Assembly: GCA_902764145.1 (NCBI GenBank)
Contig: CACWUS010000015.1
Coordinates: forward strand, 1 to 34,472
DNA: 34,472 nucleotides
Reading direction: 5' to 3'
Source of the DNA: an uncultured Erysipelotrichaceae bacterium
GTDB lineage: Bacteria; Bacillota_I; Bacilli_A; RF39; UBA660
Made by a program: the position numbers and the translations under genes. Of the stretch, positions 1,291-16,594 are shown in pieces (position 1 is the first letter of the stretch; each line of letters opens with the position of its first letter). The notes below the pieces were generated by a model. That model did no database searches and was not told where the DNA came from. It saw only the letters and a list, made by a program, of their open reading frames with translations.

Positions 1291-4218
1291 ATGAAGTTTA
1301 ATATAAAGAAGTTTAAAAATAATATTACGTTTTTTATGATATCAGCAATAGTATTGGTAGTATTATCATTACTAAGTTTTTTGATTGACAGAAGTGGTAA
1401 TATTTATGAAAAGAAAGATTTAAATGATAAAGAAATTAATATTAATAAACTTGTATTAAATGAAATAATGACATCGAATAAAGGTGTTATTGCTGATGAT
1501 GAAGGTAAACTATATGATTATTTAGAAATATATAATGGTAATGATAAAGACATTAATTTAAATGGTTATGGTCTTAGTGATGAAGATACTAAAGCAAAAT
1601 TTGTATTTGGTGATGTAACTGTTAAGGCAAAATCATATTTAATAGTTTATTTAAGTGGTACTTCTAAAGGCGGAGTTCATGCTAATTTTAAACTTAAAAG
1701 TGGTGGAGGAGAAATTGTAGCACTACTAAAACCTAATGGTAAAGCTGTTGATGCTGTTGAAACTGTTGAATTAGCTAGTAATACTGTTATGGCAAGGGAT
1801 GAAAATGGTTCATGGGTTATAATGGAAAAACCTACACCAGGTTATTCAAATAATGTAAGTGGTTATAATGCGTTTTTGGATTCTCTAAAGAGTGAAGAAA
1901 AAGGTAGCTTACAAATAAATGAAATACTTGCAGATAATAAGGGTAATTTTAAAAATTTATCTGGTGAATATAGTGGATACATTGAAGTAAAGAATATAAG
2001 TGATAAGAGTATTAATCTTGATGGATATAGCTTATCAAATGATGAAAGTGTTAGTTTTAAATGGCAATTTCCAAGTACAAGCTTGGGTAGTGGAGATGTA
2101 ATTGTTGTTTATACAAGTGGTATTAGTAGTAAAGAAGGGGAACTTAATACTGGATTTAAGCTTAAAAATAAAAATGGTGTGGTAGTATTAAGTAATAATA
2201 ATGGAAAAGTAATTGATAAAATTAAATATGAGAATCTTGGCAATGGAATTGCGTTAATTAAACAAGGCGATAAGTTACTTGAAAATAATTCTATTTCACC
2301 AGGATATGATAATACTGTTGATGGAATAAAGAGTTTCCAAAAGAAATATTTATCTAATCCTAAAGATTTAATGATTAGTGAAGCAATGAATTCTAATTAT
2401 TCATATTTAGCACAAAATGGTGGTAATTATTATGATTGGATAGAACTTTATAATAATAGTGGTAGTACAATTAAACTTAGTGATTATTGTTTAACTACTA
2501 ATACAAATTCTATTTGTATGTATACTCTTCCTGATATTGAACTTGGAAAAGGTGAATATTATGTAGTTATGGCATCAGGCGATGAAAAATTATCTAATAG
2601 TAAATATAAACATACTAATTTTAAACTTTCTGATACTGAAGGTATATATATAACTAAATCTAAAAAAATAATTGATTCTATGTTAATTGCTAATATACCT
2701 ACTGGATACTCAATGGGAAGAGGAGAATCATATGGAATATATTATTTCAGTAAGCCTACTCCTAAAGAGAAAAATGGAAGTGGAACAGAAGCTGTATCAT
2801 ATTTACCAAGTGCTTCGGTTAAGAGTGGAGCATATAATGATAAAAAAAGTATAGAAGTGGCTTTAAATGGCTACGGAGATATTTACTATACAACTGATGG
2901 TAGTAAACCAACAACTTCATCTAAAATATACAGTAGTCCTCTTACTATTAAGAAGACTACTGTTTTAAGAATAATGAGTAAAGAGAGTGGAAAACTTAAG
3001 AGTGACACTGAAACTTATACTTATATAATGAATGAGAATCATAAATTACCAATATTAAGTTTAGCAATTAATAGCAGTGATTTAAGTAATGTTAACTCTC
3101 ATACATCTTTAAATAGTAGTGTAATAGAGCCAGTAAATGTAGAATTAATTGAAAAAGATGGTAGTGGCTTTAATGTAAATGGTGGTCTTAAACTATTTGG
3201 TGGTTCTACTAGAAGTTATAGAAAAAAAAGTTATGAAATTAAATTTAAAAAGAAATATGGAGATGCTCATTTAAATTACAAATTATTTGATACTGTTGAT
3301 AGTTCAGTATTTGAATCAATTGTGCTTAGAACTGGATCTCAAGATGAATTTCAATATTCTAAGAGAGTTATAATTAGAGATATAGTTGCAACGTCTTTAA
3401 TGCATGATTTTACTAAGGTAGATGTTCAAGCATATAAACCAGTTGTTGTTTATATTAATGGTAAATATTGGGGATTATATTTTATTCGTGAAAAAGTTGA
3501 TGAAAATTTTGTCGCTAATCATTATAATGTTAAAACAACAGAAAAAGATACTGATATTTTAAGAATTGATGGAGAAGTTAAAAGTGGTAGTAGTAAAGCA
3601 TATAATTCTATGATGAGTTTTATCAATAATAATTCACTTGCTAATAAGAATAATTATGCTAAGATTAAAGAACAAATAGATATTGAAAACTTATGTGATT
3701 TTTGGATAGCTGAGATATGGACTAATAATTATGATATAGTAAATACTAGGTATTTTAGAAATCCTAAGATAGATAATGGTAAATGGAAATTTATATTTTA
3801 TGATTTAGATAGTGGTTTTTATGTAGACTATGGTAGAGAAGGTAATTCATTTAATTATTATACAAGAACTGGTGGTATAGGATATGGATACTTTAGTACA
3901 GCTTTACTTAGAAACCTTATGAAGAGTAGTGAATTTAAGAAAACTTTCTTAGAAAGATTATCTTATAATCTTAATAATACATGGTCTACTAAGAATATTA
4001 GTAAAAAAATAGACGATGTAATAGCAGAAATAGGAAAAGATGAAATTAAAAGAAATTTAAGTAGGTGGAATGTTTGTTCTTATAGTGAATGGGAAAATCA
4101 TGTTAAGGATTTAAAGTCATTTTCTAAATCAAGAACTGCATCTATCATTAAGGAAGCTAAGTCATATTTTAATTTATCTAGTAGTGATGTTAAGAAGTAT
4201 TTTGGTGATGTGAAATGA
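1291..4218 (+). CDS. Membrane-anchored CotH-kinase-like protein with three lamin-tail domains
   Basis: I chose the ATG at 1291, not the in-frame TTG at 1282, because AGGAG lies 9 nt before it; the product has 975 residues. A basic N-terminus and one membrane segment (about 12-35) point to an extracellular protein. Three lamin-tail-domain-like units follow at about 54-190, 205-340 and 360-495, each opening with a version of 'lNEim' and closing with 'PTPGYSN', 'SPGYDN' or 'PTPKEKN'. A chitobiase-C/FN3-like module with YYTTDGSKPT is at about 509-580. A CotH-kinase-like domain fills about 610 to the end, with LKLFGGSTRSYRKKSYEIKF, IREKVDEN and FYDLDSGF. CotH proteins are atypical protein kinases known from spore coats; this anchored form more likely acts on a cell-surface partner. 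It overlaps the VTC gene by 4 nt. A TATAAT lies at 1266 without a convincing -35. Confidence 0.8.
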   Translation: MKFNIKKFKNNITFFMISAIVLVVLSLLSFLIDRSGNIYEKKDLNDKEININKLVLNEIMTSNKGVIADDEGKLYDYLEIYNGNDKDINLNGYGLSDEDTKAKFVFGDVTVKAKSYLIVYLSGTSKGGVHANFKLKSGGGEIVALLKPNGKAVDAVETVELASNTVMARDENGSWVIMEKPTPGYSNNVSGYNAFLDSLKSEEKGSLQINEILADNKGNFKNLSGEYSGYIEVKNISDKSINLDGYSLSNDESVSFKWQFPSTSLGSGDVIVVYTSGISSKEGELNTGFKLKNKNGVVVLSNNNGKVIDKIKYENLGNGIALIKQGDKLLENNSISPGYDNTVDGIKSFQKKYLSNPKDLMISEAMNSNYSYLAQNGGNYYDWIELYNNSGSTIKLSDYCLTTNTNSICMYTLPDIELGKGEYYVVMASGDEKLSNSKYKHTNFKLSDTEGIYITKSKKIIDSMLIANIPTGYSMGRGESYGIYYFSKPTPKEKNGSGTEAVSYLPSASVKSGAYNDKKSIEVALNGYGDIYYTTDGSKPTTSSKIYSSPLTIKKTTVLRIMSKESGKLKSDTETYTYIMNENHKLPILSLAINSSDLSNVNSHTSLNSSVIEPVNVELIEKDGSGFNVNGGLKLFGGSTRSYRKKSYEIKFKKKYGDAHLNYKLFDTVDSSVFESIVLRTGSQDEFQYSKRVIIRDIVATSLMHDFTKVDVQAYKPVVVYINGKYWGLYFIREKVDENFVANHYNVKTTEKDTDILRIDGEVKSGSSKAYNSMMSFINNNSLANKNNYAKIKEQIDIENLCDFWIAEIWTNNYDIVNTRYFRNPKIDNGKWKFIFYDLDSGFYVDYGREGNSFNYYTRTGGIGYGYFSTALLRNLMKSSEFKKTFLERLSYNLNNTWSTKNISKKIDDVIAEIGKDEIKRNLSRWNVCSYSEWENHVKDLKSFSKSRTASIIKEAKSYFNLSSSDVKKYFGDVK

Positions 4219-4901
4219 AAAAGTATAAATATAGACATGAATTAAAATTTAAAATATCTAATGCTGCTGCTGAAGTATTAAAACAAAAATTATCATTAAT
4301 ATTAGATAAAGATAATAATGCTTACTATGAAGATGGTTCATATTTGATTAAAAGTTTATATTTTGATGATTTGAATTCTAGTTCATATTATGAAAAAATG
4401 GATGGAATATTGTATAGAAAAAAATATAGAATTAGAATATATAATAATGATGATAGCTTTATTAGATTAGAGAAAAAAATGAAGCATAATAATATGACTG
4501 CTAAGGAACAAATGTTGATTTCAAAAGATATATATAGTAAAATATTAAATGGTAAAATAAATGAAATTGATAATGCTAGTGGACTATTACTTGAGTTTTT
4601 AGGAGATTATAAAACTTTGGGTCTTGTTCCTTCTATTGTAGTTGGATATCATAGGATAGCATTTATTTATCCGATAAGTGATGTTAGAATTACATTTGAT
4701 TCTAATATTGAAAGTGGGCTATATAATTATGATTTGTTTGATAATGAAATGCCTACATATAGAGTTGATGAACCTGGTAAACAGGTATTAGAAGTTAAGT
4801 TTAATGAAGTATTACCTTTGCATATTGCATCTATTCTTGCTGATATTCCTTCTTGTAGGGAAGCAGTAAGTAAGTTTGCAATATGTAGGAGTATTAAATA
4901 A
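4215..4901 (+). CDS. VTC-domain polyphosphate polymerase-like protein
   Basis: This 228-residue protein has the charged tunnel signature of the VTC/CYTH-like polyphosphate polymerases: YRHELKFKIS near the N-terminus, SLYFDD, KKYRIRIY, RLEKKMKHN, VGYHRIAF, and VLEVKF with its acidic residue near the C-terminus. In characterised family members alternating Lys/Arg and Glu on a beta-tunnel bind ATP and the growing phosphate chain. It has no signal peptide or membrane segment, so it is probably cytosolic, perhaps docked on the adjacent DUF4956 membrane protein. Its start overlaps the CotH-like stop as ATGA, which suggests translational coupling. Polyphosphate synthesis is inferred from the family; bacterial VTC-domain proteins in this neighbourhood are largely uncharacterised. 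Confidence 0.82.
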   Translation: MKKYKYRHELKFKISNAAAEVLKQKLSLILDKDNNAYYEDGSYLIKSLYFDDLNSSSYYEKMDGILYRKKYRIRIYNNDDSFIRLEKKMKHNNMTAKEQMLISKDIYSKILNGKINEIDNASGLLLEFLGDYKTLGLVPSIVVGYHRIAFIYPISDVRITFDSNIESGLYNYDLFDNEMPTYRVDEPGKQVLEVKFNEVLPLHIASILADIPSCREAVSKFAICRSIK

Positions 4902-4911
4902 GGAGTGAATT

Positions 4912-5598
4912 ATGAGTGCAGTTGATACTATTAAAAAATCTGTTTTGGATAATTTTACAGGAACTGTTTCTGTAGGGAGTATGTTACTTTCATTATTAGT
5001 AGCATTCTTGGTTGGAATATTTATTATTTATGTTTATAGAAAGACATATACTGGAGTTGTTTATTCTAAAGCATTTGCTCTATGTATACTTATGCTTTCT
5101 ATGGTTACTGCGATGATTATTAGAACAATTAGTTCTAACATCAGCCTTTCTTTAGGTATGGTTGGTGCTTTATCTATTGTAAGATTTAGAACAGCAGTTA
5201 AAGAACCAGTTGATACTGGATTTATGTTTTGGGGAATATCTGCAGGTATTATGGCAGGAGCTGGATTATATTTAATAGCTTTAATAGCTTCTTTAGGAAT
5301 TGGTATTTTATATTTTGTAACTTATTTAATGGGATTTAAAGTTGCTAATAGATATTTACTTGTTATAAAGTATGATGCGTCTGCTCATAATGATGTTGTT
5401 AGAAAATTAAAAACTCTTAAGAAATTTAAAATTAGAAGTAAATCAATATTTGGTAATCAAATTGAACTCTCTTTAGAAGTTGATTTAAGAGAAAATAGTA
5501 GAGGAAACATTGATACAAGCATAGTTGATGGCTTTAGTTCAATGAATGGAGTAGTTAATGCTAGTTTAATAGCATATCAAAATGATTTTGGAGATTAA
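4912..5598 (+). CDS. DUF4956 family membrane protein
   Basis: The 228-residue protein has hydrophobic segments at about 22-43, 52-72 and 78-145 (probably four to five membrane passes) and a soluble C-terminal domain of about 80 residues. The stretch GALSIVRFRTAVKEPVD at about 85-101 is the hallmark of DUF4956 proteins. Genes of this family recur beside VTC-domain and CotH-like genes, as here, but have no assigned biochemical role. A membrane partner or channel for the VTC protein is an inference. It starts 10 nt after the VTC stop behind a good AAGGAGTG site and is clearly part of the same transcript. Confidence 0.82.
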   Translation: MSAVDTIKKSVLDNFTGTVSVGSMLLSLLVAFLVGIFIIYVYRKTYTGVVYSKAFALCILMLSMVTAMIIRTISSNISLSLGMVGALSIVRFRTAVKEPVDTGFMFWGISAGIMAGAGLYLIALIASLGIGILYFVTYLMGFKVANRYLLVIKYDASAHNDVVRKLKTLKKFKIRSKSIFGNQIELSLEVDLRENSRGNIDTSIVDGFSSMNGVVNASLIAYQNDFGD

Positions 5599-5601
5599 TA
5601 T

Positions 5602-6984
5602 ATGGCCACAAGAAAAGTACTTAAAATAACACCTGTTTTAGTAGCACTAAATATTTTAGTGTTACTTATTATTGTGGTTTTTTATACTGCAAGATTGATT
5701 AAATACTATAAAATAGAAAACGGGCATAAAAAAGAAGATACTACTATATTAGTGGATGAGATTAAAAAGCATCAAAGTATGCTTGATGAAACTAAAGGTT
5801 TAGTATTAGATGATAAGACTGGTATATATACATATAAGGGAGAAGTAAATGATAATTACTTGTTTTATTCTGGCATGATGTATAGAATAGTTTCTGTTGA
5901 CAAAAATGAGAATATTAAATTAGTTAGTGAAGATAATGTTACATTAATTTATCCTGGTTTTAATAATGGATATGAAAAATCTTATGTTACTAAATGGTTA
6001 AATAGTAGTGATGAAAAGAATAGTGGTATTTATGAAAATAATCTTATGAATGCTGGTGGTATCCTTGAAAACAGTCAGTATTGTGAGGATGCTATTGATG
6101 ATTTATCTAAAATTGAATGTAATAATTCTACTGATAAATATAAAATAACGCTATTATCTTTATATGATTATAAAATGGCAGGTGGAAAAACTAGTTATTT
6201 AAATAATAATACATTATTTAATTTGGGTTCATTAAATAGTATGAATGCTAATTATTATGTTACTGAAGATGGAGAAATAAGTTTAAATCAAAGATCTAGT
6301 AGGGCAATTAGTATAAGACCTGTTATTACAATTAATTCAGGAACTGAGTTAATTAGTGGTACTGGTAAAAAAAGTGATCCATATATAATTGAAAAACATG
6401 ATGTTGATACTCTTGGAGATACTTATGTAAATAGTATTGTTAAAATTGATAATAATACTTATAAAGTAGTTGAATTAGGTGAAGATAAAGTTAAATTGGC
6501 TGGTACTGATGTATTAAAAGATGGTGAATCTAATTTATTAATAGCTTTTTCAAATAAAATAAGTGCCTATCAAGATAATACTATCGTTGGTAAATATTTA
6601 AATGGTACTTTCTTAGATTCATTAAGTGTTAAAGATAGTGTAGTATCTAGTGATTGGTATAATGGAACTTTAACTCTTGCAGATTTAGATTATTCAAGTA
6701 TTAGAAATTCTAAATCAACTGCTAAAGTGGGCATGCTTACTATTGGAGATATGTATGTTAATGAAGTTAGTAATGTATTTACTACTCTTAGAGGTATGGA
6801 AGCAAGTAATATTATTAATGTTATAAATGAGAGTGGAAATTTGTATGCAGATCAAATTTCATCTAAATATAATGTTAGAGCTGCATTTTATTTAAAATCT
6901 GATTTAAAAATAAAGAGTGGTTCTGGAACTATGGATAGTCCATATGAGTTAGGAGTAAATGATGAAAAAGAAAAAGAAGAGTAA
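5602..6984 (+). CDS. Anchored protein with two tandem DUF6273-like repeats
   Basis: The 460-residue protein has one N-terminal membrane segment (about 10-31) and should be mostly extracellular. The outer part appears to hold two related units, about 75-270 and 272-455. Each begins with a short strand pair (YLFYSGMMYRIVSV; IVKIDNNTYKVVEL), contains a 'KWLN' or 'KYLNG' element, and ends with GTGKKSDPYIIE or GSGTMDSPYELG. This resembles DUF6273-like surface repeats of gut Bacillota, but I call that only by eye. It starts 3 nt after the DUF4956 stop behind GGAGA and overlaps the next gene, so it belongs to the cluster. It could be the extracellular target or scaffold of the CotH-like kinase; there is no direct evidence. 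Confidence 0.6.
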   Translation: MATRKVLKITPVLVALNILVLLIIVVFYTARLIKYYKIENGHKKEDTTILVDEIKKHQSMLDETKGLVLDDKTGIYTYKGEVNDNYLFYSGMMYRIVSVDKNENIKLVSEDNVTLIYPGFNNGYEKSYVTKWLNSSDEKNSGIYENNLMNAGGILENSQYCEDAIDDLSKIECNNSTDKYKITLLSLYDYKMAGGKTSYLNNNTLFNLGSLNSMNANYYVTEDGEISLNQRSSRAISIRPVITINSGTELISGTGKKSDPYIIEKHDVDTLGDTYVNSIVKIDNNTYKVVELGEDKVKLAGTDVLKDGESNLLIAFSNKISAYQDNTIVGKYLNGTFLDSLSVKDSVVSSDWYNGTLTLADLDYSSIRNSKSTAKVGMLTIGDMYVNEVSNVFTTLRGMEASNIINVINESGNLYADQISSKYNVRAAFYLKSDLKIKSGSGTMDSPYELGVNDEKEKEE

Positions 6985-8038
6985 GTTTAGTATATTTTTA
7001 ATAACTATTGATGTTATTGCTTTAGTGTGCTTCTTTTTAGCATATGGCCCTATATCATATTTTAGAGACTTACTTGTTACAACTGCGATGACAACGATGA
7101 ATCATAGATATTTTGCATATGTATTATATAGTGAAGATCAAGTTAAAGAAATACTTGATAATAACAAATTAATTGAACCAGAGGAGGACACTAATTCTTC
7201 TGAAATAACATTTAATCCTAATTTTAATGCAGATAGTTATGAATCTGTTTATGAAGAACAAATCCTTAAAAAAGATGAAGGTAATGATATTTATAAAATT
7301 GTAAATATTAAGGGTGACAATTGGAAAGGCTATATGGTTGTTATATATGATCCTTCTGATATAAAGTTGGTATTTGCATCTAATTATGGTAAAGGTGGTA
7401 AATACTTATCTGATATGGCAAAAGAAAATAAGGCATTAGTTGCGATGAACGCATCAGGTGTTAAATCATCTGTTGGTAAAAATCCAGTAACTGGAACTGC
7501 TATATTAAATGGTAAAGTATATGATACAGGTAAAAAAATTAATAAAGGTGGAGGGCTTATCGGATTTACTAAAGATAATGTTTTAATGCTTACTAAGAAA
7601 AGTGCTAAAGAAGCAATTAAAGATGGAATGGATAGAGCTGTAGAATTTGGACCATTTTTAATAGTTAATGGAAAACCCGCTACATTTAAAGGTAATGGTG
7701 GATGGGGTATTGCTAATAGAACAGCTATAGCACAAAGACAAGATGGAATAGTATTATTTGTAGTTATTGATGGAAGACAAGCTGGTTCTATTGGTATATC
7801 AATGCCAGATTTAGTTAAGTTATTTCAAAAGTATGGTGCTTATAATGCAGCTAATTTAGATGGTGGTGGTTCTAGTGCACTATATGCTAGAAAAACTTTA
7901 ACTGCTAAAAGTGGATCTTTACTTAATAAACCAGTAGGATATGGATATTCTGGAGAAAGAAGACTTCCAAATGCATGGATGGTTCTTCCAAGTGCAATTG
8001 AAAAACATAATAGTACGAGTGAGGGTGAAGGTGAATAA
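6959..8038 (+). CDS. NAGPA-type phosphodiester glycosidase family protein, membrane-anchored
   Basis: The 359-residue protein has a polylysine start, one membrane segment at about 10-30 and an outer domain from about 100. That domain matches the phosphodiester glycosidase (NAGPA/DUF2233) family: VAMNASG, FGPFLIVNGKP, NRTAIAQRQDG, FVVIDGR and the conserved AANLDGGGSSALYA near the C-terminus. Family members cleave or rearrange sugar phosphodiesters and occur in exopolysaccharide and wall-polymer loci. The gene overlaps the upstream repeat protein by 26 nt, with AGGAG 4-7 nt before two adjacent ATG codons (6959, 6962). Its presence points to a phosphodiester-linked surface polymer as substrate; that is inference. 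Confidence 0.82.
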   Translation: MMKKKKKSKFSIFLITIDVIALVCFFLAYGPISYFRDLLVTTAMTTMNHRYFAYVLYSEDQVKEILDNNKLIEPEEDTNSSEITFNPNFNADSYESVYEEQILKKDEGNDIYKIVNIKGDNWKGYMVVIYDPSDIKLVFASNYGKGGKYLSDMAKENKALVAMNASGVKSSVGKNPVTGTAILNGKVYDTGKKINKGGGLIGFTKDNVLMLTKKSAKEAIKDGMDRAVEFGPFLIVNGKPATFKGNGGWGIANRTAIAQRQDGIVLFVVIDGRQAGSIGISMPDLVKLFQKYGAYNAANLDGGGSSALYARKTLTAKSGSLLNKPVGYGYSGERRLPNAWMVLPSAIEKHNSTSEGEGE

Positions 8039-8039
8039 T

Positions 8040-8597
8040 ATGGAAACAAAAGATACAAAAGCAAGAGTATATTTAATTTGTGGAAAAGCAAGACATGGAA
8101 AGGATACATTTTCTGCATATTTAAAAAGTGCTTATGAAGAAAATGGTAAGAAATTAATAATAACTCAGTTATCTAAATATATTAAATATTATGCTCGCGA
8201 AATGACTGGATGGAATTTGACTGAAGAAGATAAACCAAGAGAATTATTGCAACAACTTGGCACTAGTGTAATTCGTGAGAAGTTAGGAAAAGAAGACTTG
8301 TTTATTAATAGAGTTATTGATGATATAGATGTTTTCTCATGCTTTTATGATGCTGTTATTATTAGTGATGCTAGACTTAAAAAAGAAGTTGATGATTTTA
8401 GAAAGGCTATACCTAATATAGTTGTTATTCATATTAATAGACCTAACTTTGATAATGGTCTAACACCAGAACAAAAGATGCACAAAACTGAAATTGATCT
8501 AGATGATTATGACAAGTTTGATAAAAAAATTGTAAACACAACATTAGAACAATTAGAAGAAGATGCTAAAAAAATATACACAAAATATGAAGGTTAG
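8040..8597 (+). CDS. Deoxynucleoside monophosphate kinase-like P-loop protein
   Basis: The start chosen is ATG at 8040, one base after the preceding stop and behind GGGTGAAGGTG; a longer frame upstream would only overlap the glycosidase gene. The 185-residue protein opens with a Walker A loop GKARHGKDT (15-23), then an acidic/Arg-rich middle, and VIISDARLKKEVD at about 116-128, resembling the substrate loop of dNMP and adenylate-type kinases including phage dNMP kinases. It probably phosphorylates a nucleotide monophosphate, but the substrate cannot be read from the sequence. It sits between the surface cluster and pgk with 1 nt and 9 nt gaps, so it should be co-transcribed with both. Confidence 0.6.
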   Translation: METKDTKARVYLICGKARHGKDTFSAYLKSAYEENGKKLIITQLSKYIKYYAREMTGWNLTEEDKPRELLQQLGTSVIREKLGKEDLFINRVIDDIDVFSCFYDAVIISDARLKKEVDDFRKAIPNIVVIHINRPNFDNGLTPEQKMHKTEIDLDDYDKFDKKIVNTTLEQLEEDAKKIYTKYEG

Positions 8598-10482: not shown

Positions 10483-10514
10483 ATGGTGAAAATTATGAAT
10501 GGTGAAAATTATGA
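10483..10514 (+). repeat. Perfect 16-bp tandem duplication across a start site
   Basis: ATGGTGAAAATTATGA occurs twice in a row at 10483-10498 and 10499-10514. It carries a weak GGTGA ribosome binding site and ATG codons in different frames. The second copy contains both candidate starts (10499, 10511) of the NlpC/P60-type gene. A TATAAT lies just upstream at 10473-10478. Confidence 0.85.
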
Positions 10515-11782
10515 CAGTATTAAATATATGTGATAATGGTGATGTTTTAAGTATTATTAGAATTATTAAAATTGTTATAAATATTATTAGAATAGTAGTA
10601 CCAATTATATTAATAATTTCTATTTCTTTAACTTTGGTTAGTGTAGTTAAGGATAAAGAAAGTGATGCTTTAAATAAATCTTTTAAAGGTATTATTTCTA
10701 AATCAATAGCAGCAATATTAGTATTTTTAATACCAACATTTGTAAATATTCTTGCTAATATTTCTGATAGTGATCAGAGTTACTTGTCATGTATTAAAGT
10801 TGCAACATCTGAAAATATATTAGCAGCTTACAGACTACAAGCTGAAAAATTAATAGATAATGCTTCCGAATCTCTTACTAATTCAGATTATATGTTAGCT
10901 AAGTCCGCTATAAATAAAATTAAAGATGAGAGTGTTAAAAAAGAATTATTAGATGAACTTGATGTAATAGGGGAATATATAGCATTAAGAAATGAAATAT
11001 ATTTGTTAGCTAAAGATTATGATAGAGAAAAATATAATGAACTAAAGAAAAAGTTAGAAGCAATAAGTGATGAAAAGGTTAGAGAAAGATTATTACAAGA
11101 ATTAAAAGAAGCTATTGGCAAAAATGGTTCTATGGATCAATTTATTACTGATCCGAATGATCCATTATACAGAAATCTTAAAAATTTTAGTGGTACTACA
11201 CTTAGTGATGTTTTAGCAAGAAATGGTTCTAGTGTGGAAAAATTAAATTTGCAAATTCAAGAAGCTGTAGAGCAATTTGGTGTTGGTACAAGAGAAGCTC
11301 CTGTTGCTGCAGCATTAACACTTATACAAACTCTTGCAGAATATGGGTATAGAATTAATTACTATTGGGGTGGTAAATGGTATAATATAGGAGTTAATGG
11401 AAGTTGGGGTGCTCCAACTAGTCCAATATCTTGTGATACTCACCCAAATCCTGATGGTTGTAGACAAACTATGATTTGGAAAGGACTAGATTGTAGTGGA
11501 TTTGCTAACTGGGCATTGATTCAAGGATTTCAAGACAATCACATTCCTGTTCAACGTACTAGATTTAATGGAACTGAAATATCATTAGCTGGGCAATCAA
11601 GTGCAGTATGTGATATAGGAGATGTTATGGTTAGTGGTGGTCATATAGTATTAGTAGCAGGAATCGAAGAAGATAACAAGAGATATTTAGTTGCTGAATC
11701 TACTGGTGGTGGAGTAAAGCTATCTTATTATCCATTCAATAGTTATCAATACAAATGTAGAAAAATTGATTATTCAAATTAG
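10499..11782 (+). CDS. Membrane NlpC/P60-type peptidase with TrbC/VirB2-like N-terminus
   Basis: The protein has 427 residues from ATG 10499, or 423 from ATG 10511. Two hydrophobic segments (about 26-50 and 66-86) separated by a short basic loop resemble the TrbC/VirB2 pilin-like hairpin. A charged, helical, probably coiled-coil region spans about 105-210. The C-terminal third is NlpC/P60 or CHAP-like: YYWGGKW, LDCSGFANWAL with nucleophile Cys332, and SGGHIVLVAG with His382. It should sit in the membrane with the peptidase outside and cut peptidoglycan stem peptides, as lytic enzymes of conjugation or secretion systems do. No conjugation genes are nearby. It lies between terminators and directly upstream of spo0A, where Bacilli usually have spoIVB. 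Confidence 0.72.
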   Translation: MVKIMTVLNICDNGDVLSIIRIIKIVINIIRIVVPIILIISISLTLVSVVKDKESDALNKSFKGIISKSIAAILVFLIPTFVNILANISDSDQSYLSCIKVATSENILAAYRLQAEKLIDNASESLTNSDYMLAKSAINKIKDESVKKELLDELDVIGEYIALRNEIYLLAKDYDREKYNELKKKLEAISDEKVRERLLQELKEAIGKNGSMDQFITDPNDPLYRNLKNFSGTTLSDVLARNGSSVEKLNLQIQEAVEQFGVGTREAPVAAALTLIQTLAEYGYRINYYWGGKWYNIGVNGSWGAPTSPISCDTHPNPDGCRQTMIWKGLDCSGFANWALIQGFQDNHIPVQRTRFNGTEISLAGQSSAVCDIGDVMVSGGHIVLVAGIEEDNKRYLVAESTGGGVKLSYYPFNSYQYKCRKIDYSN

Positions 11783-11909: not shown

Positions 11910-12665
11910 ATGAAAATTAAAGTATTGGCAGTAGATGATAATGCAGCACAAGTTAGTATGATTAAGAAGTACTTTAATGGAAGTGAAAAGATAGAGGTTG
12001 TAGATAGTGCATCTAACGGAGAAGAGGCAATATCTAAAATAAAGAGTTTAGATTTTGATATTATACTTTTGGACTTAATAATGCCTAAAAAAGATGGTTT
12101 TGGTGTTCTTGAGTACATGAAAGAAAATGATATTAATAAAAGTGTTATTGTTCTTACCTCTTTTAATGAAGAAGATACAATTAGTACAATTAGTGAGTAT
12201 GGTGTTAAATATTATGCTTTAAAACCTTTTGAATTAAAAAGCCTTGAAAATATTATAATTAAAATAATGAAATCTAAGAAAAGTAATAATGAACTGGTTG
12301 AAATACAAGATAAAGATATGCAAATTCAAATTACTAAGCTATTACATGAACTAGGTATTCCATCTCATATAAAAGGTTATCAGTATATTAGATCAGCAAT
12401 ATTGATGGTATATGATAATCCTAGTTTTATAGGAGGGATAACTAAAGAATTATATCCGGATTTATCTATTAAATTTAATACATCTATTCAAAGAGTAGAA
12501 AGAGCAATAAGACATGCTATTGAAGTTTCTTGGTTAAGAGGTGATATTGATTTAATGGAAGAAATATTTGGACACAGTGTTGATATTGATAGAGCTAAGC
12601 CAACAAATTCGGAATTTATTGTTACAATAGCAGATAAATTAAGACTTGATATGATTAATGTATAA
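11910..12665 (+). CDS. spo0A: Sporulation master response regulator Spo0A
   Basis: Spo0A is the phosphorelay-controlled transcription factor that starts sporulation in Bacillota. The 251-residue length is close to the usual ~265. The receiver domain has Asp9/Asp10, phosphoacceptor Asp55 (LLDLIMP), Thr83 and Lys105. After a short linker, the effector domain from about 145 carries the Spo0A-specific signature: LGIPSHIKGYQYIRSAI, KELYPDLS, RVERAIRHAIEVSWLRG (the DNA-binding helix region) and AKPTNSEFI. The start follows AAAAGGAGAAAAAT. The ~100-nt upstream region has AT-rich -10-like hexamers at 11863 and 11877, but I could not fix a promoter or a good 0A box. Whether this organism sporulates cannot be told from one gene. 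Confidence 0.95.
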   Translation: MKIKVLAVDDNAAQVSMIKKYFNGSEKIEVVDSASNGEEAISKIKSLDFDIILLDLIMPKKDGFGVLEYMKENDINKSVIVLTSFNEEDTISTISEYGVKYYALKPFELKSLENIIIKIMKSKKSNNELVEIQDKDMQIQITKLLHELGIPSHIKGYQYIRSAILMVYDNPSFIGGITKELYPDLSIKFNTSIQRVERAIRHAIEVSWLRGDIDLMEEIFGHSVDIDRAKPTNSEFIVTIADKLRLDMINV

Positions 12666-14299: not shown

Positions 14300-16594
14300 A
14301 TGAATGATACTAGTAATGTAGGGGTTAATAGTGTTCCACAGGCAAATCCAGTTCCAGCGACACCAAATGTAGCAGTTCCAACTCCAGCAGCAGCACCTGT
14401 TGCACAGCCTGCTCCTGTGGTTAGTCCAAGTCCTGTTGCACAAAGTGAACCTGTTTTGACAAATCCTATGGCGCAAACTACGACAGTATCAGCAAATGTT
14501 GTACCTCCTGTAGCACCAGCACCAGTAGCTCAACCTGCACAAGTTGCACCAACGCAAGTTGCACCAACACAAGTTGCGCCTGCGCAAACTACTGTTCAAA
14601 CGCCTGCTCCAGTTGCACCTGTAGTTCAAACACCGGTAGTCCCAGCTCCTGCACCACAACAACCTGTGGCTCCAGCTGCTCAAGCACCATCTGTAGTAAC
14701 TCCAGCTGCTCCTACTGTTGAAGCTCCAGTTGCACCAGAACCAGTTGCAGCAAAAGAGGAATCAAAAATAGAAGTACAATTAGCTGATAATATTAAAATA
14801 GATTCTGAAAATAAAAAAGAAAAGAAAAAGAAAAAAGAAAAAAAATCATCTGATGATGAAGATGAAGAAAATACAATTAAAGCAAATAGATATCCAATTA
14901 TTTTAGCAGTTGTTTTTGTTTCATTATTGCTATTAGTCTTTGTTTATTATTATTTAGTTATGACACCATATAATGTATTTGATAGTGCATTATCTTCAAT
15001 GGTTGATGCTGTAAAAGATGGTGTAGATAATTTTGGAGAAGATGATTCAGAAAGAAATACATTTGATTTAAAATTCGATTTACAAACTGATACTAAACAA
15101 TTTGAAAACAATCCTGAACAAGAACCAATTGATTATATTAATGGAGATCATATTCAAGGTATAGTTAATTTTGATACAATTAGCAAAGGCTTTTCTGTTA
15201 ATTTATTAGCTGACAAAGCTATAAAGAATTTACCTGAAGGTGTAACAGATTATAAAAAAAGAGAAAATTTGGCTAATATGCTTGATTTAAAAATTTATAG
15301 TTTTAATGATAACATGTATTTAGGGCCAATATATTATATAGATTATAATGATCCAGAAGAGGCTAAAAAAGCACCTATAAATTCAGATAAAATAGTTCAA
15401 GTTAGTTTTGGAAGTGAAAGTGAAGGAAGAAGCTTTAGTGTTGATTCATTCACATTAGACTCACTTAAATATGCTGCTGATTTAATAGATTTAATTATTG
15501 AAAAGGGTAAAACAACAGTATTTGAAAGTGATTTAGAAAGAGGAATTGTATTCAAAAAAGTTGGTGATAATACAGCAATTGCATTAAAAGCTAACTGTGA
15601 TACAGATTCCAAGATGATTGACAGGGTATTTCATGGTACATTTGATGATGAGTTTATAAATAGAAAAGATGTTATAGATTTAACTCAAAAGGTATTTGGT
15701 TTTTCTGAACAAGAAGCAAAAGACTTCTTACAAGAAATACATGATAGACCTCAAGATATTAATCACTTAGATATTAATCTTTATATGAACTTAGCAAATA
15801 CAGAGTTAATATCATTCGATATGACTTTTGATGAAAAGTATTATATTGAATTAGATTATTTAAAAGGTTTTTATTCAATAATAATTAGAGTTATGACTGA
15901 TGGAAAAGAAGAAAATGATACTTTAAATATCAAAGCTAGCTATGATAGAGATAATGGTATTGTTGATGGTTTAGGAATTATTAATAATGATAATACATTC
16001 CTTGCTGTTAAATTTGATTATAATAGAAAAATAACAACTACCGGTGAAAAAGTAGGTAACTCATTAAAGTTCAAATTCTATAATAATGATAGTTATAAAG
16101 AAACAGATGAGAGTAAACAAAAACCTTTCTGTAGGTTAGATTGTACATTAGATATATATGAAAGCAATGATGATCCAGGAGGTAAAACTAAGTTTGATTT
16201 GAAAGAGGAAATCAAGGATGCACATATTCTTCCGGTTAGTCAGTATAAAACAAGTAGTGGTCTGATTATTAAATCAACGCTCACCGACTTGCCTAAGATA
16301 TCTGTAGCTGAAGGTGTTCAAATCATTAATTTTGAAAAAGGTTTCAATTCTCACATAATGTTCTTAGTAGACCACTTATTGTACAATAAGGAAGGTGCCA
16401 TTGCTAGAAGAGATGCTGATGATAAAGAAGAAACAAAAGTAGAAGATAAAACAGAAGAAGTTACAGATGATACAAGTGAAGAAGTAAGCGAGAATACTCA
16501 AACAACTGAAGAAATAAATGAAAGTACTCAAGTAACAGAAAATAATACCAGTACTACAGAGAATGTAGTTGATACAACTCCTGAAAAAGAGTAA
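14300..16594 (+). CDS. Large Pro/Ala-rich single-pass membrane protein, unknown function
   Basis: I do not recognise this 764-residue protein. Residues 1-150 are low-complexity Pro/Ala/Val/Gln. A Lys cluster followed by an acidic cluster lies at about 172-190. One membrane segment (about 198-220) is next, then a folded-looking region of about 450 residues rich in Asp, Asn and beta-type patterns. The last ~60 residues are acidic and Thr/Ser-rich. With no signal peptide, the Pro-rich part is probably cytoplasmic and the rest outside, though the reverse is possible. Similar layouts occur in sporulation, division and envelope-stress proteins, but nothing fixes a role. The Pro/Ala stretch is visibly richer in G+C than its surroundings because of its codons. 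It has its own promoter and terminator, so it is a single-gene unit. Confidence 0.75.
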   Translation: MNDTSNVGVNSVPQANPVPATPNVAVPTPAAAPVAQPAPVVSPSPVAQSEPVLTNPMAQTTTVSANVVPPVAPAPVAQPAQVAPTQVAPTQVAPAQTTVQTPAPVAPVVQTPVVPAPAPQQPVAPAAQAPSVVTPAAPTVEAPVAPEPVAAKEESKIEVQLADNIKIDSENKKEKKKKKEKKSSDDEDEENTIKANRYPIILAVVFVSLLLLVFVYYYLVMTPYNVFDSALSSMVDAVKDGVDNFGEDDSERNTFDLKFDLQTDTKQFENNPEQEPIDYINGDHIQGIVNFDTISKGFSVNLLADKAIKNLPEGVTDYKKRENLANMLDLKIYSFNDNMYLGPIYYIDYNDPEEAKKAPINSDKIVQVSFGSESEGRSFSVDSFTLDSLKYAADLIDLIIEKGKTTVFESDLERGIVFKKVGDNTAIALKANCDTDSKMIDRVFHGTFDDEFINRKDVIDLTQKVFGFSEQEAKDFLQEIHDRPQDINHLDINLYMNLANTELISFDMTFDEKYYIELDYLKGFYSIIIRVMTDGKEENDTLNIKASYDRDNGIVDGLGIINNDNTFLAVKFDYNRKITTTGEKVGNSLKFKFYNNDSYKETDESKQKPFCRLDCTLDIYESNDDPGGKTKFDLKEEIKDAHILPVSQYKTSSGLIIKSTLTDLPKISVAEGVQIINFEKGFNSHIMFLVDHLLYNKEGAIARRDADDKEETKVEDKTEEVTDDTSEEVSENTQTTEEINESTQVTENNTSTTENVVDTTPEKE
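14540..14584 (+). repeat. Three tandem 15-bp coding repeats (QVAPT)
   Basis: Three copies of a CAAGTTGCACCAACG-like unit lie head to tail, the last one diverged. They encode QVAPT-QVAPT-QVAPA inside the Pro/Ala-rich segment. The repeat is in frame, so copy-number change would alter length without a frameshift. Confidence 0.85.

Follow-up and report, generated by a model that had tools for sequence, protein, structure and literature searches.

Organization of the locus

The 34.5 kb contig CACWUS010000015.1, the whole of which is called the window below, comes from an uncultured Erysipelotrichaceae bacterium with a genome of 1.45 Mb (91.6% complete). The assemblies closest to it come from gut metagenomes and are variously labelled Tenericutes, Bacilli or Erysipelotrichaceae. 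Five genes occupy positions 1291–8038, all on the plus strand, and encode a CotH-family protein, a VTC-domain protein, a DUF4956 membrane protein, a membrane-anchored protein called gene 4 here, and a NAGPA-type phosphodiester glycosidase. The original prediction, made from the DNA letters alone, took them for one undescribed system. The locus is instead made of two modules. The CotH-VTC-DUF4956 trio is already known; its VTC and DUF4956 genes are obligate partners. Gene 4 and NAGPA form an independent pair, repeatedly joined to VTC loci.

The five genes are all real, and the families named CotH, VTC, DUF4956 and NAGPA were borne out by Pfam matches. They are tightly packed, but the spacing of 3–10 nt throughout that had been described was not found: CotH and VTC overlap by 4 nt, gaps of 10 and 3 nt separate VTC from DUF4956 and DUF4956 from gene 4, and gene 4 and NAGPA overlap by 26 nt.

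All 12 intact relatives in the genus share the order CotH-VTC-DUF4956-gene 4-NAGPA, on the same strand, and it recurs unchanged at three loci outside the genus (L113, L116, L123). The arrangement is therefore not due to chance. Other layouts were also found. The gene 4-NAGPA pair is divergent and upstream of CotH at L110, L114 and L126; DUF4956 is followed by NAGPA, without gene 4, at L100-L105, L107-L109 and L111; Desulfosporosinus loci L143 and L148 feature the order VTC-DUF4956-CotH-NAGPA-GT2. Adjacency of the last two genes to the trio, a point on which the original prediction hung, thus extends to many genomes. A second, divergent VTC-DUF4956 locus (L063:31-6891) was observed in the genus member G013, with a GT2-like gene and a Desulfosporosinus-type NAGPA ahead of it.

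VTC and DUF4956 are obligate partners

The VTC gene (4215–4901, plus strand) encodes a 228-amino-acid protein that has no membrane helix and is predicted to be cytosolic. The VTC domain was matched by Pfam (PF09359) with E 1e-30, at 107.5 bits against a cut-off of 23. Residues K11, R72, R74, K88, K97, Y145, R147, R158, E193, S219 and K220 are invariant. The yeast Vtc4 residues K200, R264, R266, K281, K294, Y359, R361 and R373 align to positions that do not vary across 34 diverse bacterial VTC proteins; the Vtc4 numbers were obtained by counting along the alignment, K200 being assigned to the tunnel lysine to set the offset. Apart from R264 and R266, we take the catalytic role of these positions from earlier (2009) work on Vtc4. 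E193 and K220 are proposed as counterparts of Vtc4 E426 and K458, which lie beyond the aligned region. Catalysis by yeast VTC is impaired in the R264A/R266A/E426N mutant (PMC9911596).

The yeast complex, made of Vtc1, Vtc3 and Vtc4, synthesises polyphosphate and translocates it through a channel lined by basic residues (PMC9911596). It shares with the window genes a homologous tunnel-enzyme domain, the aligned catalytic residues and a partner with membrane helices. It differs in that here one gene encodes the polymerase and another the membrane part, the partner is MgtC-like rather than a three-helix protein of the Vtc1 type, and the SPX domain is absent. PPK1 was looked for in this 91.6% complete genome and was not found.

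The DUF4956 gene (4912–5598, plus strand) encodes a protein, also of 228 amino acids, with MgtC-like membrane helices and a C-terminal ACT-like (ferredoxin-like) domain. The Pfam match to DUF4956 has E 1.2e-10. Comparison with the MgtC profile (hhalign 97%, E 8e-11) revealed homology across both the membrane and the C-terminal domains. The latter scored Z 9.6–9.9 against MgtC C-terminal domains and 10.7 against an ACT domain, generic ACT domains scoring equally high. Among DUF4956 relatives only three Pfam matches to MgtC were found, all below cut-off, and the family is therefore described as MgtC-like and not filed as MgtC. DUF4956 proteins further differ from MgtC in having a conserved VRFR..K motif of their own, and in being tied to VTC. 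The invariant residues R91, R93 and K97 lie at a helix end, which probably faces the cytosol, as judged by the positive-inside rule and by analogy with MgtC.

All 117 loci examined (113 distinct) have VTC and DUF4956 side by side. DUF4956 occurs in 31 of 145 genomes of the family, never without VTC, and in the three genomes of this set having VTC without DUF4956 the VTC gene is only fragmentary or broken. The two were detected together in the same three controls from other phyla, Bacteroides ihuae, Corynebacterium glutamicum and Methanosarcina acetivorans.

The third gene of the trio

The CotH gene (1291–4218, plus strand) encodes a protein of 975 amino acids, made of an N-terminal membrane helix (N-in), three lamin-tail (LTD) domains, a CHB_HEX domain and a C-terminal CotH kinase domain. 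The kinase domain was matched by Pfam (PF08757) with E 1.9e-45, at 156 bits against a cut-off of 23.8, together with the LTD and CHB_HEX domains. No solved structure was matched by phmmer with the full-length protein, and the family profile was aligned with spore coat protein H, 5jd9 (E 3e-10). The kinase-site residues E734, N813, D815 and D838 are kept in 79–81 of 81 relatives; we take their counterparts in 5jd9 to include the catalytic residues. The VTC and CotH domains therefore both keep their catalytic residues on alignment, as the original prediction needed.

An N-terminal membrane helix is predicted in 79 of 83 CotH relatives, N-in in 76 of these. Of the four others, two are fragments at contig edges and two carry lipobox-like signals. 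The kinase domain is accordingly predicted to lie outside the cell, held by the membrane anchor, and the spore-coat location of the founding CotH is not matched. In two small genomes (G444, G494) CotH matches contain 8–9 in-frame TGA codons, which is consistent with TGA being read as tryptophan.

CotH is the third gene near VTC at 99 loci, Cthe_2159 at 13 others; the two never occur together. Nine of the 13 Cthe_2159 assignments are confirmed by Pfam. A hydrophobic helix lies at the N-terminus of 12 of the 13 proteins; the other one is missing its start. Members of this beta-helix family bind cellulose and acid sugars (PMC6712302). Genome counts were 46 with both VTC and CotH, 16 with VTC only, 21 with CotH only and 261 with neither (odds 36).

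Gene 4 and NAGPA form an independent module

Gene 4 (5602–6984, plus strand) encodes a protein of 460 amino acids with two domains, at residues ~72–247 and ~265–446. The window protein has no Pfam match of its own, but DUF6273 was matched in 11 of 19 aligned family members (best 1.5e-6). An AlphaFold model (predicted local distance difference test score 84) matched no fold in Foldseek. In VIA-align the model scored Z 15.6 (2.8 Å over 179 residues) against 9qa6, an IgA peptidase domain of Thomasclavelia ramosa, Z 7.2 against the C-terminal domain of Legionella Lcl, and Z 4–5.7 against C-type lectins. These matches of the model make a tandem C-type-lectin-like surface protein the best reading of gene 4. 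Its description as a secreted or anchored repeat protein holds as to the membrane anchor and the two domains, and can tentatively be refined to DUF6273/C-type-lectin-like.

The NAGPA gene (6959–8038, plus strand) encodes a membrane-anchored protein of 359 amino acids, with the NAGPA domain at residues 157–342 (PF09992, E 5e-39, 134.6 bits against a cut-off of 25). The conserved core comprises R254, D271-G-R and N299-L-D-G-G-G-S. Domain and NLDGGGS core are shared with the NAGPA uncovering enzyme and with bacterial DUF2233 proteins, the window protein being a bacterial, membrane-anchored form. Both gene 4 and NAGPA products are predicted to be outside the membrane.

NAGPA adjoins 51 of 54 full-length gene 4 relatives, in 45 genomes and mostly far from VTC. 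Genome-wide co-occurrence of NAGPA and VTC is not significant (P 0.056, co-occurrence P values taking no account of phylogeny). The reading of the five genes as a single undescribed system was rejected because the gene 4-NAGPA pair is independent; the trio, moreover, had already been described (PMC7112168; PMC12345266).

The alternative that chance put two unrelated modules into one operon, the trio working on its own and an ordinary surface pair having been inserted downstream, has in its favour this independence and the non-significant co-occurrence. It is at odds with the distances and with the tree. Of 37 VTC places, 5 have NAGPA within 5 kb, where 0.36 would be expected. The NAGPA tree requires at least 2 independent joinings to VTC loci, in varied layouts (downstream, divergently upstream, with GT2-GtrA). 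The joining of NAGPA to VTC is therefore recurrent, and we hold chance assembly to be unlikely.

Two large proteins encoded upstream of the trio, L103:6-3566 (1186 amino acids) and L088:2414-4588 (725 amino acids), match the gene 4 profile, and many genomes feature ten or more such matches. From the large upstream proteins it follows that the lectin-like domain has been amplified in surface proteins of this lineage.

Genomic contexts of the trio

The trio was described as accessory to Pel polysaccharide loci (PMC7112168; PMC12345266), and according to the 2025 study the three-gene arrangement is not found outside them (PMC12345266). Only 8 of 99 trio loci lie beside Pel genes. At the other 91 neither PelF nor PelG is found within six genes, at least 5 genes per side having been read at 67 of these, which disagrees with the statement of exclusivity. 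Pel genes were not seen among the scanned neighbouring genes of the window, and PelG was not detected in this genome (91.6% complete), a result on which Pel biosynthesis by this bacterium was rejected. The Gram-positive Pel accessory set, CotH-PPP(VTC)-DUF4956 (PMC7112168; SIR_1592-1594 in S. intermedius, PMC12345266), resembles the trio of the window in the adjacency of the three families, the exported CotH and the MgtC/ACT-like DUF4956. In the window, Pel genes are missing from the vicinity, CotH carries lamin-tail domains, and the lectin-like/NAGPA pair follows.

Other trio loci neighbour a chitin-synthase-like GT2 gene with a HEAT protein, RsgI anti-sigma factors, or GT2-GtrA genes. The VTC-CotH cluster of C. 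perfringens NELoc-2 (PMC2879425) likewise has VTC, a neighbouring small membrane protein and CotH, with a sigma factor and a glycosyltransferase beside them; there a HEAT protein and a chitin-synthase-like gene adjoin, and no NAGPA was noted. At L204-L210 the trio is directly downstream of RsgI-type anti-sigma genes, several preceded by a gene for a sigma-70 region 2 protein, which suggests control of the trio at these loci by an envelope or polysaccharide signal.

CotH, VTC and DUF4956 had been called a recurring neighbourhood lacking an assigned function, and this agrees with the literature, the trio being known but unexplained. What is new is that it stands independently of Pel, that VTC and DUF4956 pair obligately, that CotH can be exchanged for Cthe_2159, and that the lectin-like/NAGPA pair, a separate unit, docks recurrently. 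The trio is widespread, all three families having been detected in Bacillota, an actinobacterium (C. glutamicum) and an archaeon. Mostly free of Pel, with VTC and DUF4956 inseparable and an exported protein in the third slot, it can be recast as a general cell-surface phosphate module.

A possible phosphate system at the cell surface

A phosphate-linked surface-polymer role is reasonable, because the active sites are preserved, VTC is obligately paired with DUF4956, three of the proteins are predicted outside, and polysaccharide genes lie beside related loci. That much of the original prediction is retained, though not as a single five-gene unit.

The best-supported reading, though in our view possible rather than probable, is joint action of the two modules at the cell surface. 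The cytosolic VTC protein would polymerise phosphate from ATP into polyphosphate. DUF4956 would take the chain at the inner membrane face and pass it, or couple it, across, like the membrane part of yeast VTC. The anchored extracellular CotH protein would phosphorylate a surface glycan or protein. We propose that exported polyphosphate may be the phosphate donor for CotH, which is plausible because little ATP is expected outside the cell, and because CotH and VTC co-occur strongly; the puzzle of where a kinase outside the cell obtains its phosphate is thereby made testable. The tandem lectin-like protein would bind a surface glycan, and the NAGPA-type enzyme would cleave sugar-phosphodiester bonds, trimming the same polymer. 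More speculative, and quite unlikely as a whole, is a fuller scheme in which VTC and DUF4956, the latter as an MgtC-like translocase, form a split VTC polymerase whose polyphosphate is pushed across the membrane and powers the extracellular protein or glycan kinase where ATP is lacking, the kinase can be swapped for a beta-helix protein binding acidic polymers, and the lectin-glycosidase pair edits the phosphorylated surface polymer in this lineage.

Several points weigh against joint action of this kind. MgtC proteins are not known to act as channels. Neither a glycan substrate nor a polymer synthase was identified close to the window, VTC is missing from 21 of 67 CotH genomes, Cthe_2159 replaces CotH at 13 loci, and NAGPA and VTC do not co-occur significantly. 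In S. intermedius, deletion of CotH lowered Pel and deletion of DUF4956 raised it, and either deletion cut aggregation in artificial sputum by more than half, while no change was reported on deletion of VTC (PMC12345266), which is unexpected if VTC feeds CotH. These results agree with CotH and DUF4956 acting on a surface polymer, but not with VTC being essential in the conditions used.

The silent VTC deletion, which by itself gave no aggregation phenotype, is also what may be cited for VTC and DUF4956 being a phosphate-homeostasis unit, in which an MgtC-like DUF4956 with a ligand-sensing ACT domain controls cytosolic polyphosphate, nothing is exported, and CotH uses another donor. The homology of DUF4956 to MgtC and the ACT-type domain favour this alternative, as does the link in Salmonella between MgtC and both phosphate uptake and ATP synthase, as cited in PMC12345266. 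We consider it rather unlikely: it leaves unexplained both the exported third gene, be it CotH or Cthe_2159, and the recurrent polysaccharide-gene context.

The opposite effects of the CotH and DUF4956 deletions on Pel would also suit an idea raised for Pel, where control of synthesis by phosphorylation was proposed (PMC7112168). CotH would phosphorylate proteins of the cytosol or of the synthase complex and so regulate a polysaccharide synthase, and VTC and DUF4956 would tune phosphate supply. In essentially all of the 83 relatives the prediction places the kinase domain outside the membrane, which would put cytosolic regulators out of its reach, and the 91 trio loci without Pel genes within six genes do not fit either; we regard regulation of this type as improbable.

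A spore-coat role for CotH, brought to mind by its family and by a Spo0A gene of TIGR02875 level in the window (11910–12665), was rejected as highly improbable, as CotH is exported and membrane-anchored with lamin-tail domains, unlike spore CotH, and the trio is present in non-sporulating streptococci (PMC7112168) and all its families in C. glutamicum.

Other genes in the window

A dNMP-kinase-like gene (8040–8597, plus strand) begins ~1 nt past the NAGPA stop, in an open reading frame open from 7941 with a likely start near 8040, and the transcription unit may therefore extend past 8038. The gene is a conserved neighbour within the genus and is probably co-transcribed with the five genes, but is not judged part of the system proper. 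A promoter scan gave 60 sites against 60.3 in shuffled sequences, hence no excess, and no promoter is claimed.

At the left end (9–1208), an open reading frame of 399 amino acids with no Pfam match resembles a Hint/intein-like segment (CLDGESEIEVYD ... YANGILTSRGSNN), and a relative occupies the equivalent place in L059/L096. The 764-amino-acid open reading frame at 14300–16594, between iPGM and a ribosomal protein operon, has no credible family match. A protein of 427 amino acids encoded at 10499–11782, also without Pfam match, features a hydrophobic N-terminus and a C-terminal segment resembling NlpC/P60-type cysteine peptidases. The Spo0A equivalog at 11910–12665 (TIGR02875, 260 bits, cut-off 200) adjoins the glycolytic gene iPGM, in what is a 1.45 Mb Tenericutes-like genome from the gut.

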